A stretch of DNA of 64,000 bases from Geobacter sp. FeAm09 (GTDB lineage Bacteria > Desulfobacterota > Desulfuromonadia > Geobacterales > Pseudopelobacteraceae), in assembly GCF_008330225.1 (NCBI RefSeq), contig NZ_CP042466.1:1746501-1810500 (forward strand), given 5' to 3'. This document shows positions 48,481 through 55,404 of this stretch, in pieces. Position numbers and translations under genes: made by a program. The number at the start of each line of letters is the position of its first letter. Within the stretch, counting starts at the first letter, position 1. A model generated the notes under the pieces. The model worked only from the letters and a program-made list of their open reading frames with translations, ran no database searches and was not told where the DNA came from.

Positions 48481-49403
48481 CCGCGTTCAACGCCCTTGAT
48501 ATCCAAGGTCTGTCCAAAACATTCATCGGCAAGCGCCGCCAGCGTGTCGAAGCGCTCAAGGGCCTGTCCCTTTCCATTGCCCAGGGCGAAATCTTCGGCT
48601 TCCTCGGCCCCAACGGCGCCGGCAAGAGCACGACCATCAAATGCCTGATGGGGCTGATCCGGCCGACGGCCGGCACGGCTACCATCATGGGCGAACCGAT
48701 CGGCAGCGTCGCGTCGCGGGCGAAAATCGGTTTCCTGCCCGAGAACCCGGCCTTTTACGATTACCTGTCCGCCGAGGAATATCTCCGCTTTGTGGGCAAG
48801 ACCTTCAAGATGCCGGAGGCCCTCCTGACCCGCAGGACGGACGAGGCGTTGAAGCAGCTCGAACTGTGGGATGCCCGCAAGCGGCCCATGCGCGGCTACA
48901 GCAAGGGGATGGTGCAGCGGGTCGGACTGGCGCAGACCTTGATCCACGATCCCGACCTGTACATCCTGGACGAACCCATGAGCGGGCTCGACCCCATCGG
49001 CAGGGCACTGGTGAAGGAGATCATCCTCGATCTGAAGAAACGGGGCAAGAGCGTTTTTTTCAGCACCCACATCACCGACGACGTGGAAAAGGTCTGCGAC
49101 AGGGTGGGGGTGATCGTCAAGGGACAGCTGGAGGCCCTGGACAGCGTCGAGAATATCGTGCGGCAAGGGATTGAAGGGTACGTCGTGCAGACCAGGCTGA
49201 ACCAGGGCAATCATGACGCTTTGGCGGCTTTTGCCGTCATGCGCAGGAATGACGCCTTCGCGGAGTACTTCGTGCCGGTGGCGCGCTTCAATGAATTCGT
49301 GGCGTTGGCCGGGCAGCATTCGGTGGAGGTCACGCTGGTGGAAACGAAACGCAAGGACCTGGAAAGCTTCTTTCTGGAAATTGTGGAAAAGAGGAATTCA
49401 TAA
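48477..49403 (+). CDS. ABC-2-type exporter ATPase, 308 aa
   Basis: This is the ATPase of the exporter. Walker A is GPNGAGKST, the signature is YSKGMVQRVGLAQTL, Walker B is LYILDEPMSGLD, and the switch His is in FSTHITDD. The C-terminal 80 residues form an accessory domain like those of gliding/NatA-type ATPases. A GTG start at 48477 overlaps the TPR gene. Composition is GC-rich, unlike the two AT-rich genes before it. The 3' end overlaps the convergent hybrid kinase by six bases. Confidence 0.9.
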   Translation: MTAFNALDIQGLSKTFIGKRRQRVEALKGLSLSIAQGEIFGFLGPNGAGKSTTIKCLMGLIRPTAGTATIMGEPIGSVASRAKIGFLPENPAFYDYLSAEEYLRFVGKTFKMPEALLTRRTDEALKQLELWDARKRPMRGYSKGMVQRVGLAQTLIHDPDLYILDEPMSGLDPIGRALVKEIILDLKKRGKSVFFSTHITDDVEKVCDRVGVIVKGQLEALDSVENIVRQGIEGYVVQTRLNQGNHDALAAFAVMRRNDAFAEYFVPVARFNEFVALAGQHSVEVTLVETKRKDLESFFLEIVEKRNS

Positions 49404-51923
49404 GCCATCGCCCTGCCGGACGGCTCCTCCCAATGCCTCCGCAAGCTCCTTCATCCGGTACGGCTTGATCACCGCACCGCAAAAACCATACTCTTGGTAG
49501 TGAGCCATGATCGGATCGCTGGAATATCCGCTGGAAACCACCAGGCGTGCCGCGGGATCAAGCTCAAGAATCACCCGGGCGGTCTCCTTGCCCCCCATGC
49601 CTCCCGGCACGGTCAGGTCCATGATGACGACATCGAAGGGGGTGCCCGATTCCTGTGCCGCCCGGTAACGGGAAACTGCCTCTTCACCGGTGGTGCAGGT
49701 CGTTACCCGGTACCCCAAAAGATGGAGCATCTTGGTGGCAAGGTCGAGGATCATCTCGTCGTCGTCCATGACAAGGACGGAGCCGCTGGCCGGGGGGGCG
49801 CTCGCCACGGCACCGTCTTCCGGGCGGCCGGCGGCCGGCGTCGCCGCGCCTGCTGCCGGGAGATGGATGGTGAAGGTAGCCCCGGTGCCGGCGCCGGAAC
49901 TGACGGAGATGTGGCCGCCATGCCTGGTGATGATCGAGTAGACCGAGGAAAGCCCCAACCCCGTGCCGCCCGCTTTGGTGGTGAAATAGGGATCAAATAT
50001 CTGCTTCTGGATTTCATTCGGGATACCGCATCCCTCATCTGAAAAAGTCAGTTTGACATATTCCCCTGCTGCCACCCCCAGAGTGTTGCTGTCGTCCAGC
50101 GTGACGTTTTCAGCCGTAATGGCCAGCCGCCCGCCACCCGGCATGGCCTGCACGGCATTGATCACGATGTTGTTGAAGGCCTGATTGATCTGGCCCGCAT
50201 CCGCCTCGATGATGCGCAGGTCCGCAGGAAGATCAAGGGCGGCCGTCACCTCGGTGCCCCGCAAGACCAAAGAGACGGATTCCTCCACCAGCCGTTGTAC
50301 CGAAAGCGGCTTTTTGACCGGTTCGCCTCCTTTGGCAAAGGTCAGCAGTTGGCCGGCAAGTTCGGCGGCGCGTTGTGCCGCCTTCTCCGCCTGCTCCAGG
50401 GGTTCGCGGGCCTTATGCGCCCCATCGATGAACAACTGGGCAAAGGATATGTTCCCCAGGATGCTGGTGAGGATATTGTTGAAATCATGGGCGATCCCTC
50501 CGGCCAGAAGTCCCAGGGATTCGAGCTTCTGCACCTTCAGGAGTTCGTTGTGGGTGAATTCGCGTTCGGTGATGTCGGTGAAGATGGCAAGGGCGCGGTT
50601 GCGGATGAGTTGGGTGTTGATGATTACGTGCCGCACCGTGCCGTTCTTGCAGGTGATTTTTGCCTCCCGGGGCACAACCTGAGTGCCATCCGCCATTTCC
50701 GATAACCCGTTCGTCCATGCTGCGGCAACCTGTTTGCGGTAGCCGGGTTCGGGATAGGCCTTCAGAAACCATTGGTCGGTCGTGGGGATATCGTCGATGG
50801 TGTAGCCAAAGTGGCTCACGAAGCTGCTGTTCACGTATTCGATGACCCCGTGGTAGTTCGTTATGCCGACGCCCACGGGAAGCGCTTCCATGAGCAGCTT
50901 CAAGGTCTGTTCGCTCTCCCGCAGCATCTCCTCCGCACGTTTGCGCTCCGTAATGTCCCGGGCGATGTTGAGGATACAGGGGGCACCCTCGATGTCGATA
51001 CGGCGGGCCGACATCTGCCCGACAACAATCGTTCCATCCTTTCTTCTGAATTCGGCCTCGTGATTCATGGCGATACCGTGGGCATTGATTTCACGCACCA
51101 GGCAAGCCCGGTCCTCGGGGTTGACCCAGATGTTCAGTTCAAGGGACGATCTGCCTATGACCTCTTCCGGCTGATAGCCGGTAATGGCGCTGAACCCTTC
51201 GTTCACCTCCAGGTAGATGCCGTCTTCCAGACGGTTGATGCTGATCGAGTCCGGCGAAATGCGGAATGCGGTGGAAAACTTTTCTTCCGAGAGGCGGAGC
51301 CGTTCCTCGGCCCGCTTGCGTTCGGATATGTCCCGGACCATGGCCAGGATGCAGCCGTTGTCGTCAAGCGTCGTCTTGCACAGGGTGATCTCTGACGGGA
51401 AAACGCTCCCGTCCTTCTTTTTGCTGACCCATTCAAATACTTGGGAAGAACCGGTCAGCGCGCGTTGGAGCAATTCCTGCGCCTCCTCGGCAGAGTAGGG
51501 GGGCGTGCCGAGGCTCATGTGGCCGAAGGTCATTGCGAGAAATTCGCTGCGGCTATAGCCGAACATGGTGCAGGCGGTCTGGTTGGCGTCGATGAAGCCG
51601 CCGGTCCCGGCATCGTTGATGAATACGGCGTCGTACATGTTGTTGTAGATGGTCTGGAATCGCTCTTCGCTGGTCCGTCCCCGCTGCTTCGCCTCCATTG
51701 TACCGGTGACATAACGGGCAATGAGATGGAACAGGAGTGCGGCAGTGACAAGGACAAAAGCAAATCCCTTGAAGATGGAAATGCTGGCAATGGTGGCCGG
51801 GGACCTGACGAAGAATTCGAGGGCTGAATCGGACAGATAGATCCATAGCGAGCTGAAGGCGGCATAGATGCCGACAATCTTGAATACCTGCCAAAGTCCC
51901 CTTGTTTTGAAAGGATGGTACAC
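49398..51923 (-). CDS. Hybrid sensor histidine kinase with PAS domains and receiver, 841 aa
   Basis: This is a membrane-bound kinase. Two helices (residues about 15-35 and 45-65) lead to three PAS domains, the first with FQTIYNNMYDAVFIND, the second with FRISPDSISINRLEDGIYL, and the third with LPVGVGITNYHG; each is followed by a PAC motif (RDISERKRAEE). The kinase core has GGIAHDFNNILT (His479), N box NIVINAVQAMPGG and G box GGTGLGLSSVY. The C-terminal receiver has Asp769 in IMDLTVPGG. The start is GTG at 51923 with GAGAGG eight bases upstream. It is convergent with the exporter ATPase. Signal and partner are unknown. Confidence 0.92.
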   Translation of the reverse strand: MYHPFKTRGLWQVFKIVGIYAAFSSLWIYLSDSALEFFVRSPATIASISIFKGFAFVLVTAALLFHLIARYVTGTMEAKQRGRTSEERFQTIYNNMYDAVFINDAGTGGFIDANQTACTMFGYSRSEFLAMTFGHMSLGTPPYSAEEAQELLQRALTGSSQVFEWVSKKKDGSVFPSEITLCKTTLDDNGCILAMVRDISERKRAEERLRLSEEKFSTAFRISPDSISINRLEDGIYLEVNEGFSAITGYQPEEVIGRSSLELNIWVNPEDRACLVREINAHGIAMNHEAEFRRKDGTIVVGQMSARRIDIEGAPCILNIARDITERKRAEEMLRESEQTLKLLMEALPVGVGITNYHGVIEYVNSSFVSHFGYTIDDIPTTDQWFLKAYPEPGYRKQVAAAWTNGLSEMADGTQVVPREAKITCKNGTVRHVIINTQLIRNRALAIFTDITEREFTHNELLKVQKLESLGLLAGGIAHDFNNILTSILGNISFAQLFIDGAHKAREPLEQAEKAAQRAAELAGQLLTFAKGGEPVKKPLSVQRLVEESVSLVLRGTEVTAALDLPADLRIIEADAGQINQAFNNIVINAVQAMPGGGRLAITAENVTLDDSNTLGVAAGEYVKLTFSDEGCGIPNEIQKQIFDPYFTTKAGGTGLGLSSVYSIITRHGGHISVSSGAGTGATFTIHLPAAGAATPAAGRPEDGAVASAPPASGSVLVMDDDEMILDLATKMLHLLGYRVTTCTTGEEAVSRYRAAQESGTPFDVVIMDLTVPGGMGGKETARVILELDPAARLVVSSGYSSDPIMAHYQEYGFCGAVIKPYRMKELAEALGGAVRQGDGL

Positions 51924-52228: not shown

Positions 52229-52681
52229 ATGAACAAAGAGCAGGGGCGCGCCATTCTCCAACGGCTGAAGATGAAGGTCACCCCCAAGCGGCTGGAGGTT
52301 ATGTGCTGCCTGGGAAGCGAGCCGCTCTACCTTTCCGCCGACGAGGTCTGGCATCGCATCAGGGACCGGGTCGCCAGCGTCGGGCTGCCCACGGTGTACC
52401 GCATCCTCGATGAGCTTGCCGAGGCCGGCGTCATTACCCGCATCTTCCTGGCCGACCGCAAACAGTACTACTTTCTTTGCGCCAACCAGGAGCACCATCA
52501 TCATTTCGTGTGCGAGTCCTGCCGGCGGGTCGAGGACCTGGGCCAGTGCGTGCTCGGCGATGGCGCTCTCGATGTGGTTCAGCGTTCGGGCGGGCGCGTG
52601 ACGTCCCATATCCTGCAAATCAACGGGGTGTGCGGCACCTGCAGCACTCCGCGCGAGGGAACGGCATGCCGGACGAAATAG
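52229..52681 (+). CDS. Fur-family regulator, Zur-like, 150 aa
   Basis: This is a metal-dependent repressor. The N-terminal winged helix has TPKRLEVMCCLG, the metal region EHHHHFVCESCRRVEDL, and a second CxxC in GVCGTCSTP; the paired CxxC motifs are the structural zinc site in Fur/Zur proteins. It starts at ATG 52229 and overlaps the downstream ATPase by 16 bases. The neighbouring genes encode a zinc/manganese-type ABC importer, so zinc sensing (Zur) is more likely than iron (Fur), but sequence does not prove it. A palindromic operator lies just upstream. Confidence 0.87.
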   Translation: MNKEQGRAILQRLKMKVTPKRLEVMCCLGSEPLYLSADEVWHRIRDRVASVGLPTVYRILDELAEAGVITRIFLADRKQYYFLCANQEHHHHFVCESCRRVEDLGQCVLGDGALDVVQRSGGRVTSHILQINGVCGTCSTPREGTACRTK

Positions 52682-53418
52682 TCAGGACGGAGCGGCTCTG
52701 CTGCAGTTATCGGACGGGCCGGGTCTTGGAGGACATCTCCATCTCGGTGGCGTCGGGCGATTACGTCGGGATTGTCGGCCCCAACGGCTCGGGCAAGAGT
52801 ACGCTGGTGCGCGCCCTGATGGGACTGTGCGCCATCAGCGGCGGCGACGCCTCCCTGTTCGGCGTGCCGTGCAGCCGCTTCAACGCCTGGGGCCGAATCG
52901 GGTATCTGCCCCAAAGCCTGCACTTGCTCAATCCCATATTCCCGGCCACCGTGGCCGAAACGGTCGGCCTCGGCCTTTTGTCGTTGAAGCGCTTCCCCCG
53001 CCGGTTGACCGCTGCCGACCGGGCGAAGGTGGATACCGTCCTGGAGCAGTTGGATATCCAAACCCTGCGCTCCAAACTGATCGGCGAGCTTTCCGGCGGC
53101 CAGCAGCAACGCGTTCTTCTGGCCCGCGCCCTGGTCAACGACCCGGATCTGCTGATCCTGGACGAGCCGACCGCAGCCCTGGACCCTGAGATGCGCGAAC
53201 GTTTTTATGCGCTGATGGGCGAAATAAACCGTTCCCGGCAGGTTACGGTGCTATTGGTGACCCACGATACCGGCGCCATAGGGAAATACGCCTCGAAGAT
53301 GCTGTATCTGGATAAGCGTATGCTCTTTTACGGTAATTTCGAGGAGTTCTGCCGCTCCACGGACATGTCGGACCTGTTCGGGGAACATTCCCAACACTTG
53401 ATGTGCCACAGGCATTAG
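52666..53418 (+). CDS. znuC: ZnuC-like metal ABC importer ATPase, 250 aa
   Basis: This is an ATPase of a zinc or manganese importer. Walker A is GPNGSGKST, the signature is LSGGQQQRVLLARAL, Walker B is LLILDEPTAALD, and the switch His is in LVTHD. The region IGYLPQSLHL is typical of the ZnuC/MntB group. ATG 52666 has GAGGGA upstream and overlaps the regulator gene. The permease follows seven bases after its stop. A periplasmic binding protein (ZnuA) is not encoded in the window. Confidence 0.88.
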   Translation: MPDEIVRTERLCCSYRTGRVLEDISISVASGDYVGIVGPNGSGKSTLVRALMGLCAISGGDASLFGVPCSRFNAWGRIGYLPQSLHLLNPIFPATVAETVGLGLLSLKRFPRRLTAADRAKVDTVLEQLDIQTLRSKLIGELSGGQQQRVLLARALVNDPDLLILDEPTAALDPEMRERFYALMGEINRSRQVTVLLVTHDTGAIGKYASKMLYLDKRMLFYGNFEEFCRSTDMSDLFGEHSQHLMCHRH

Positions 53419-53424
53419 TTCACC

Positions 53425-54257
53425 ATGAATTATATCGAAATACTCTCATACGGTTTCATCCAGCGGGCGCTTCTGGCGGGAACGCTGATCGCCGTGCTCT
53501 GCTCGGTGCTGGGCGTGTTCCTCGTGCTGCGGCGGCTTTCCCTCATCGGGGACGGCCTGGCTCATGTCACCTTCGGCGGCTCCGCCATCGCCCTGTCGCT
53601 CAAGCTCTATTCCGCTTCGGCACTGCTGGTGTCGCTGCCGGTCGTGCTGCTCTCGTCCCTGGGCATCCTCAAGCTGACGGAAAAAGCCCGCCTGAACGGC
53701 GACAGCGCCATCGGCATCGTGTCGGCGCTGGGGATTTCGGCGGGTATCATTCTGGCGAGCGCGGGGGAGGGTATAACGTTGACCTGCTGAGCTACCTGTT
53801 CGGCAATATCCTCTCCATAACCTCCCAGGAGGTGGGCATTGCCGCCGTGTTGTTCTGCGTGGTGATACTGCTGTTGTCCCTCTTTTTCAACGACCTGCTC
53901 GCCATCTCCTTTGACGAGGAACTGGCCCGGGTATCCGGCATACGGACCGCAACCATCAATGCGGTGCTGGTGTCGTTGACGGCCCTGTCGGTGGTCCTGG
54001 CGATGAAGCTGGTGGGGATCATGCTGATCTCGTCGCTCCTGATCCTGCCGGCGGTGTCGGCCCTGCAACTGGCCCGCAGCTTCAAGTCCTGCGTTGTCCT
54101 GGCCGCCCTTCAGGGGGGCTGTTCGGTCGTGGTCGGCATTTTCCTGTCCTTCGCCACCAACCTGCCCACCAGTGCGATGATCGTACTGCTCAATCTGGCC
54201 TTTTTCAGCCTCGCCTTCCTTGCCCGGCGCTGTCTGCAACCTAAAAGTAATAGCTGA
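53425..54257 (+). pseudogene. znuB: ZnuB-like metal importer permease, frameshifted
   Basis: The permease is split across two frames. The first (ATG 53425) gives IEILSYGFIQRALLAG, VLRRLSLIGDGLAHVTFGG and ISAGIILASAG, then stops at 53790. The second frame carries YNVDLLSYLFGNILSI onward and the later helices to 54257, where LLILPAVSALQLA is typical. The break is at a run of five G (53763-53767): one more G, or a -1 slip, restores an unbroken ZnuB of about 277 residues with eight to nine helices. Its 3' end overlaps the convergent DJ-1/HD-GYP gene by 17 bases. A sequencing error is the simplest explanation. Confidence 0.85.
53763..53767 (+). other. G5 tract at the reading-frame break of znuB
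   Basis: Frame one reads GCG GGG GAG, frame two CGC GGG GGA. The family sequence needs Ala-Gly-Gly-Gly-Tyr-Asn, obtained by adding a single G here. Confidence 0.8.
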
Positions 54258-55404
54258 AGTCCTTGATTTCAAAAGGCGACTCATTCAGGCACTCGATAAA
54301 GACGTCCACCAGGAACGGGTCGAATTGGCTTCCCTTCTGTTCCTGCAGTTCCCGGATGGCGGCCTCCTTGGTCTGGGCCGGCCGGTAGGAGCGGACGGAG
54401 AGCATGGCATCGAAGGCGTCGGCAATGCTGACGATGCGGGCATGGAGCGGAATCTGCTCACCCTTGAGGCGGGCGGGGTAGCCGCTGCCGTCCCAGCGCT
54501 CGTGATGATGCAGGATGGTGGGCACGATATGGCTCAGGCTCTCGATCCCCACGATGAAGAGCGTGCCCTTGAGGGGATGTTCCCGGATGAGGGTTTCCTC
54601 GCGCAGGTTGAGCCGCTCCGGTTTGTTGAGCACATCGTCGTCGGTGCCGATCTTGCCGATATCGTGAAGAATTGCGCCGAGGTACAGGTCGCGCAGCTTG
54701 GTCTCGGAGAGTTTCAGTTTGGAGCCGATGCCGAGGGAGTATTCGGTAACCCGTTTTGCATGCCCCTGGGTATAGGTATCCTTCAACTCCAGGGCTCCCA
54801 CCAGCGCCTGGATGGTGCTGTTGAACAGGCGTTGATCCCATACCTCGTCATCCATGGCAGCGCCGGCCAGCATGGCCTTGGCGACATCTTCCGAAGCGTG
54901 GTTGCCGGCCAGCCGGGAAACGATGGCCAGGGCAAAGGGAAGTGCCGTGCCCGGACCCTTGCTGGTCATGATCCGCCCGTCGGTCACCACGGGTTGGTCA
55001 AGATAGTATGCTCCGCCAAGCCTTTCCCGGTAGGCGGGGTAGGAGGTGGCCTGCCGGCCGTGGAGCAGGCCGGCGCTGGCGAGCACGATCGGCGCGGCGC
55101 AAATGGCGCCGAGGAGTTTGCCGGCCTCGTGGAAATCCTTGAGGAGCTTGTCTACCCGGATATCCGAGTTGAGATTGTCGCTGCCCGGCTGGCCGCCGGG
55201 GAGGACGATCATGTCGAAGTCGTCGGCCCTGGCGGTATCGATGGTCGTATCGGGTATGACGGCGACCTTGCGGGCGCTGGTCACCGGCCCCGGATGCAGG
55301 CCGGCCGTCACAACCTCGATTCCGGCCCTGCGGAGCACGTCGATGACCGTAACGGCTTCAAGCTCTTCAAAACCTTCGGCTAACGGAATCAGGACCTTTG
55401 GCAT
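54241..55404 (-). CDS. DJ-1/PfpI domain fused to HD-GYP phosphodiesterase, 387 aa
   Basis: The N-terminal half (1-185) is a DJ-1/PfpI-like domain: MPKVLIPLAEGFEELEAVT, DMIVLPGGQPGSDNL and AICAAPIVLAS with Cys102 as the elbow nucleophile. The C-terminal half (about 200-387) is an HD-GYP domain: His215 in TQGHAKR, HD at 247-248 in ILHDIGKIG, HHH at 299-301 and GYP at 308-310, all catalytic or metal-binding residues kept. HD-GYP domains cleave c-di-GMP or cGAMP. The start at 55404 has GGGGAG seven bases upstream. The two-domain fusion is unusual; it may sense oxidative or carbonyl stress and lower c-di-GMP, which is inference. Confidence 0.92.
   Translation of the reverse strand: MPKVLIPLAEGFEELEAVTVIDVLRRAGIEVVTAGLHPGPVTSARKVAVIPDTTIDTARADDFDMIVLPGGQPGSDNLNSDIRVDKLLKDFHEAGKLLGAICAAPIVLASAGLLHGRQATSYPAYRERLGGAYYLDQPVVTDGRIMTSKGPGTALPFALAIVSRLAGNHASEDVAKAMLAGAAMDDEVWDQRLFNSTIQALVGALELKDTYTQGHAKRVTEYSLGIGSKLKLSETKLRDLYLGAILHDIGKIGTDDDVLNKPERLNLREETLIREHPLKGTLFIVGIESLSHIVPTILHHHERWDGSGYPARLKGEQIPLHARIVSIADAFDAMLSVRSYRPAQTKEAAIRELQEQKGSQFDPFLVDVFIECLNESPFEIKDFSYYF

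Follow-up and report, generated by a model that had tools for sequence, protein, structure and literature searches.

A gene joining a DJ-1/YajL-type domain to an HD-GYP domain in Geobacter sp. FeAm09 and its relatives, a candidate two-headed enzyme

Most known HD-GYP proteins carry input domains of standard types, and the main biochemical role of DJ-1, which forms a dimer in humans, is still debated. Passages of Bellini et al. (PMC4159591) define a trinuclear (E/D-T-G) HD-GYP subgroup, predict that the Tyr/Phe subfamily binds two metals, and name RpfG, which has Phe at the His189 position, as a demonstrated phosphodiesterase. For DJ-1/YajL proteins, passages of PMC12135873 state that cPGA hydrolysis needs the equivalents of E15, E18, G74, G75, C106, and A107, with Pro158 essential and His126 dispensable. 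In Geobacter-like bacteria, biofilm and extracellular electron transfer are linked to the cyclic dinucleotides c-di-GMP and cGAMP, according to parts of PMC6456294 and PMC12285248.

Here, we describe a gene that encodes both domains in a window of 64,000 nucleotides (the whole stretch of DNA analyzed) from Geobacter sp. FeAm09. The best-supported account of its product, with a probability of about 0.5, is a two-headed enzyme in which a DJ-1/YajL-type repair head would be tethered to a di-metal cyclic-dinucleotide phosphodiesterase; a sensor role for the DJ-1 domain is a possible alternative.

The fused gene and its neighborhood

The gene occupies positions 54241–55404 on the minus strand and encodes 387 residues plus a stop, with a DJ-1/YajL-type domain followed by an HD-GYP domain. 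Strand, coordinates, and length agree with the first-pass annotation, and the residues it had quoted (Cys102 in AICAAP, His215, His247-Asp248, His299-301, and Gly-Tyr-Pro 308-310) are all in place. The ATG at 55404 has the motif GGGGAG upstream at a usable distance, as judged by eye, and the same start is found in 12 aligned relatives. A plus-strand ORF of equal length (54220–55383) overlaps the gene and is regarded as its shadow because the profile matches and the conservation sit on the minus strand.

The joining of a DJ-1/PfpI domain to an HD-GYP domain, as originally proposed, is borne out by matches to both Pfam profiles and by relatives that carry the same fusion. The DJ-1/YajL-type domain (residues 1-180; 54865–55404, minus strand) was delimited by Pfam, TIGR01383, a residue tally, and Foldseek; DJ-1_PfpI (PF01965) matches residues 3-163 at 2.4e-51, and the N-terminal half scores 188.6 bits against the NCBIfam model TIGR01383 “DJ-1 family glyoxalase III”, which has a cut-off of 131.25. 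A linker (residues 181-189; 54838–54864, minus strand) leads into the HD-GYP domain (residues 190-387; 54244–54837, minus strand), which is supported by Pfam, alignments, the residue tally, and Foldseek, with HD_5 matching residues 203-363 at 5.4e-37. The fusion of the two domains in one polypeptide is real. A frame or assembly artefact was considered and rejected, as 30 full-length or near-full-length copies are known.

Convergent with the fused gene are an ABC transporter ATPase, labeled znuC-like by resemblance, and an ABC-3 permease (znuB-like, PF00950), together at 52660–54257 on the plus strand, and the 3' ends of the fused gene and the znuB-like frame overlap tail to tail by 17 nt (54241–54257). 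The same tail-to-tail arrangement with znuC-znuB-like genes was seen in 8 of the 19 fusion loci examined; of the remaining 11, two (L144 and L147) are cut off by a contig end within the gene. The permease itself (53425–54257, plus strand) is in two frames in the window, the 5' part ending at 53790 and the 3' part running to 54257. Both parts are in one frame in all 10 relatives examined. The break reflects a genuine loss or else a sequencing indel close to a G-rich run.

Further along the window, a Fur-family regulator (52229–52681) adjoins a hybrid histidine kinase (49398–51923, minus strand) with three PAS matches, a kinase domain, and a C-terminal receiver. No RNA family in the window reached its gathering score, and neither promoter-like sites (2, against 1.0 in shuffles, sd 1.0) nor terminator-like sites (2, against 1.7, sd 1.4) occurred beyond chance.

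Distribution, single-domain relatives, and selection

Among 76 genomes of the window’s family searched with an E-value cut-off of 1e-55, 45 had a match: 29 full-length fusions (the window’s included), 3 partial fusions, 7 HD-GYP-only forms, and 6 DJ-1-only forms. Two of the partial fusions (G042 and G045) stop at a contig end, and the third (G049) has a broken frame. The spread of the fusion in the family is patchy, as the remaining 31 genomes had no match at 1e-55; of the 53 good-quality genomes, 36 had a match and 17 did not. Outside these counts is a DJ-1 piece of 80 residues with 68% identity in G065, one of the 31 genomes. The full-length family copies are 65-100% identical to the window protein and come from 7 genera.

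Across the order (141 genomes), 30 full-length or near-full-length fusions were found, 29 of them in the window’s family, and the other, in a genome of another family (G128), covers residues 4-376 at 59% identity. The fusion spans 8 genera in all. No further fusion was found in 277 genomes of the class or in 345 genomes drawn from the phylum, where three DJ-1-only genes at 50-54% were seen. At 1e-54, in searches that sampled genomes and scored the best candidates per genome, and which diverged or independent fusions could escape, no fusion was found in 50 genomes with HD-GYP loci, in 188 genomes of the phylum of G643, or in 249 genomes of the phylum of G624, where the 7 matches are to the HD-GYP half alone. 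Matches were obtained in 66 plasmid and 36 phage records, with no place covering 80% of the query, and no DJ-1 relatives were confirmed in viral contigs. A plasmid tblastn match over residues 1-297 in Sulfurovum mangrovi looked like a fusion but was rejected, because a stop closes its DJ-1 gene and the sequence beyond is in a different frame; by eye, that frame resembles DNA polymerase III alpha.

The early description of the bacteria concerned as “Geobacter-type” holds approximately. The fusion is present in Pelobacter propionicus DSM 2379 (G008), and Trichlorobacter lovleyi SZ (G078) has the HD-GYP-only form, both genomes being named by a 100% match of the second replicon. When the 76 family genomes were searched with TIGR01383, 38 of them had one match each above the cut-off: 29 in full-length fusions, 3 in partial fusions, and 6 in DJ-1-only genes. 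Other superfamily members fall below the cut-off, the next best at 88 bits, and the window’s genome has 8 of them. Thus, the DJ-1 proteins over the TIGR01383 cut-off in these 76 genomes are the fused gene or its single-domain relatives.

The first-pass annotation had taken separate genes for the two halves in close relatives as a sign of a frame artefact. Relatives with a single half do exist, but in the loci examined no fusion was split into neighboring genes; one half is absent instead. All five HD-GYP-only genes examined (of 7) adjoin the same znuB, 473 bases from the match end, which is also the commonest spacing in the fusions, and one of the 6 DJ-1-only genes (G063) adjoins znuB at 497 bases. 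Since they share this neighbor, both single-domain forms occur at the fusion’s own locus. The existence of single-domain relatives also argues that each head can be useful alone and that DJ-1 is not merely an input domain.

In the HD-GYP tree, 36 family rows (30 fusions, the partial G049, and 5 HD-GYP-only rows) form one clade (100/99). G128 splits off first (97/82 for the remaining rows), and the family’s fusions, whose own grouping reaches only 90/80, have the HD-GYP-only rows as their sister group. If the G128 fusion was inherited vertically, the fusion would be the older form and the HD-GYP-only rows would have lost DJ-1, whereas with a horizontal origin of G128 either order of events is possible. 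The G128 fusion is either ancestral or horizontally moved. It is the sole fusion found outside the window’s family (L134, 7157–8287), with a long DJ-1 branch and without the C-terminal KDFSYYF tail. In the DJ-1 tree, the fusions G061 and G076 form a well-supported group (99/84) with the DJ-1-only pair G067 and G047, which implies that the HD-GYP half was lost there, while G063, G074, and the long-branched pair G073-G071 have no firm place among the fusions.

Selection was estimated by the Nei-Gojobori method in 15 hand-picked pairs with both halves, where dN/dS was 0.05-0.23 for DJ-1 and 0-0.13 for HD-GYP, rough values given that dS exceeded 1 in several pairs. Two DJ-1-only pairs gave 0.06 and 0.15, and four HD-GYP-only pairs gave 0.02-0.09. 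Both halves are under purifying selection in the close pairs tested.

These data bear on the idea of a neutral fusion, in which two unrelated enzymes were joined by chance, the joint has no function, and lineages drop whichever half is of no use to them. Both kinds of single-domain relative, the family genomes without a match (31 of 76 at 1e-55), and the unconserved linker sequence are what such a history would leave behind, but it fits poorly with a fusion kept in 29 of the 76 family genomes and 7 genera with purifying selection on both halves in the pairs tested, and we consider it improbable. The narrow linker length together with the presence of the fusion across 8 genera hints at some functional link.

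The two active sites and the joint between them

Residue positions were transferred through HMMER alignments to PmGH and DJ-1beta, and human DJ-1 numbers are a transfer from aligned ranges. The HD-GYP residues of the window protein are H215, H247, D248, K251, H276, H300, H301, and D329, the counterpart of PmGH D305, with Y211 at the position of the third-metal Glu. D209, H247, D248, K251, H276, H299, H300, H301, G308, Y309, P310, and D329 are kept in 30/30 fusions; each of H247 and H299 is replaced by Tyr in one of the five HD-GYP-only rows. The HD-GYP metal ligands that the first-pass annotation had listed are in place, and with seven of the eight PmGH-type ligands present, the site looks competent. 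The eighth, PmGH Glu185, is replaced by Tyr in 27 and Phe in 3 of the 30 fusions, which sets them outside the trinuclear (E/D-T-G) subgroup and therefore predicts a two-metal site.

The equivalent of PmGH His189 is His215 in the window protein, and it is His in 15 of the 30 fusions and Gln in the other 15. The Gln215 fusions belong to genus g6 (e.g., L012, L116, and L129) and form one clade (99/99; 16 rows, including the partial G049). An altered metal site is possible in this clade, and half of the fusions could thus have a changed or lost phosphodiesterase. However, Gln215 need not abolish activity, since RpfG has Phe at the His189 position. Decay of the HD-GYP half in the clade was considered and is unsupported, as dN/dS for HD-GYP was 0.037-0.087 in the eight of the 15 pairs that carry Gln215, some with dS above 1.

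A metal ligand replaced by Gln in 15 of 30 fusions, all in one clade whose HD-GYP half is nonetheless constrained, raises the option that regulation runs in reverse, with HD-GYP acting mainly as a cyclic-dinucleotide receptor that modulates a DJ-1 enzyme, chiefly in the Gln215 clade. Consistent with this, DvhD, the best fold match of the HD-GYP half, binds c-di-GMP without cleaving it, as passages of PMC13090378 describe. Those passages also indicate that neither the HD motif nor the double His survives in DvhD, whereas 30/30 fusions keep both, and RpfG, with Phe at the His215 position, is named a demonstrated phosphodiesterase in part of PMC4159591. Reverse regulation is unlikely.

The DJ-1 pocket of the window protein consists of E13, E16, R26, G70, G71, C102, A103, and P151. 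All 30 fusions keep E13, E16, R26, G70, and G71, while C102 is kept in 28 (Gly in G024 and G128), A103 in 28, and P151, at the Pro158 position, in 24. The DJ-1-only rows have C102 in 6/6 and P151 in 2/6, and their retention of Cys102 suggests that DJ-1 has a job without HD-GYP. None of the 30 fusions lacks both C102 and H215: the 15 Gln215 fusions all keep Cys102, and the two Cys-less fusions keep the other HD-GYP ligands. Judged by residues, each of the two active sites appears competent.

The linker between residues 179 and 189 has 8-10 residues in 29 of the 30 fusions and 6 in one; in the broken-frame G049 it has 19. Mean conservation is 0.41 in the linker, 0.75 in DJ-1, 0.84 in the HD-GYP core, and 0.93 in residues 376-387. 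The linker is thus free in sequence and fairly narrow in length, given its low conservation and the 8-10 residues in 29/30. An AlphaFold2 model, made as a single chain from 21 sequences of which just 3 cover DJ-1, has a mean pLDDT of 84.4 and a pTM of 0.55, with pLDDT below 50 at residues 44-47, 180-189, and 378-387. A helix (191-208) directly follows the linker. This monomer model has no fixed domain orientation, and it may be compatible with contact between the heads in a dimer. Searched against the PDB with Foldseek, the DJ-1 half matches human DJ-1 entries (TM by target 0.84-0.88 among the matches listed), and the HD-GYP half matches DvhD (0.80-0.84) and PA4781 (0.80).

The C-terminal KDFSYYF tail (54244–54264, minus strand) belongs to the stretch with the highest conservation measured, although it is outside the HD-GYP core and poorly predicted; it may be a binding or localization tail. 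Overlap with znuB does not explain its conservation, because the tail is kept in G024, G008 (as NDFSFYF), and G017, where znuB was not found adjoining.

The first-pass annotation had cast DJ-1 as a sensor that controls HD-GYP. In such a model, the DJ-1 head would sense redox or carbonyl state, and oxidation of Cys102 or an adduct on it would alter the dimer and switch the phosphodiesterase, and would thereby link c-di-GMP or cGAMP to electrophile stress. The order of the domains, input then output, is that of other HD-GYP proteins, and gating by the N-terminal domain is described for a globin-HD-GYP in part of PMC10882959. Cys102 in 28/30 fusions, the linker of 8-10 residues in 29/30, and a fusion in 29/76 family genomes and 7 genera would fit a sensor as well. 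The narrow linker length speaks for coupling between the heads. Against a sensor are the HD-GYP-only relatives in 7 and the DJ-1-only relatives in 6 family genomes, the two fusions that lost the Cys and yet keep the HD-GYP ligands, and a linker with a conservation of 0.41, low pLDDT, and no fixed orientation between the domains in the monomer model. A sensor is thus possible but somewhat doubtful.

A possible two-headed enzyme and its closest known systems

In the two-headed enzyme that we favor, the DJ-1 head would be a hydrolase or hydratase using the elbow Cys102, Glu13/Glu16, and the Gly70-Gly71 oxyanion loop, and it would remove a reactive metabolite such as cyclic 3-phosphoglyceric anhydride or alpha-oxoaldehydes like methylglyoxal. 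The HD-GYP head would be a di-metal phosphodiesterase of the Tyr/Phe subfamily that linearizes a cyclic dinucleotide. The short tether would hold both heads in a single polypeptide at equal expression, and dimerization through DJ-1 would present the HD-GYP heads in pairs. Each head would be selected for its own chemistry, with regulation between the heads secondary. We infer the catalytic activities of both heads, their substrates, the dimerization, and the direction of loss. Points that speak against the two-headed enzyme are the Cys-less G024 and G128, the Pro158 position, which differs in 6/30 fusions and 4/6 DJ-1-only genes, the Gln215 found in half of the fusions, and the best fold match of the modeled HD-GYP half, the non-hydrolyzing receptor DvhD.

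A more speculative and rather doubtful extension would be a hard-wired damage enzyme, in which occupation or oxidation of the DJ-1 head by glycolytic or carbonyl by-products changes the rate of the HD-GYP head. If this were true, carbon overflow or electrophile load would directly set the cyclic-dinucleotide level in Geobacter-like anaerobes, and the Gln215, Cys-less, and single-half lineages would have rewired or abandoned the link. The natural variants (Cys-less, Gln215, DJ-1-only, and HD-GYP-only) offer a ready-made test set for cross-talk between repair and cyclic dinucleotides.

Among titles searched in the open literature, none concerned a DJ-1 plus HD-GYP protein, a coverage that does not extend to the 2022 census of HD-GYP architectures by Galperin and Chou; passages of PMC5504864, PMC7998248, PMC1790865, and PMC5549716 do not describe one. 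A new architecture built of known parts is plausible, and the parts compare with described proteins as follows.

The HD-GYP half, which falls with the Tyr/Phe (putative two-metal) subfamily, has sequence matches to all three of the solved relatives PA4781 (4r8z), V-cGAP3 (5z7c), and PmGH (4mcw), and shares with them seven of eight PmGH ligands, Lys251, Asp209, GYP, I318, and R338. Unlike them, it follows an N-terminal DJ-1 domain rather than REC, PAS, or GAF, and it has Gln215 in 15/30 fusions. DvhD (9rbz), the c-di-GMP receptor that is its best fold match (TM by target 0.80-0.84), has no HD motif or double His and does not hydrolyze c-di-GMP according to passages of PMC13090378, whereas the window protein keeps both motifs.

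The DJ-1 half shares the pocket Glu, Glu, Arg, Gly-Gly, and Cys-Ala with the DJ-1/YajL subfamily (human DJ-1, Drosophila DJ-1beta, and E. coli YajL) and has Tyr at the human His126 position, as in DJ-1beta; unlike the subfamily, the window protein adds a C-terminal HD-GYP domain. Ava_4496 (3fse), compared by titles and matches, combines a DJ-1/ThiJ/PfpI-like domain with a ferritin-like domain, whereas the second domain here is HD-GYP. A globin-coupled HD-GYP protein of Vibrio fluvialis also has an unusual N-terminal domain, as described in part of PMC10882959; there, it is a heme globin with measured gas gating and a predicted signaling helix, whereas the DJ-1 fusion has a short linker and is known from sequence.
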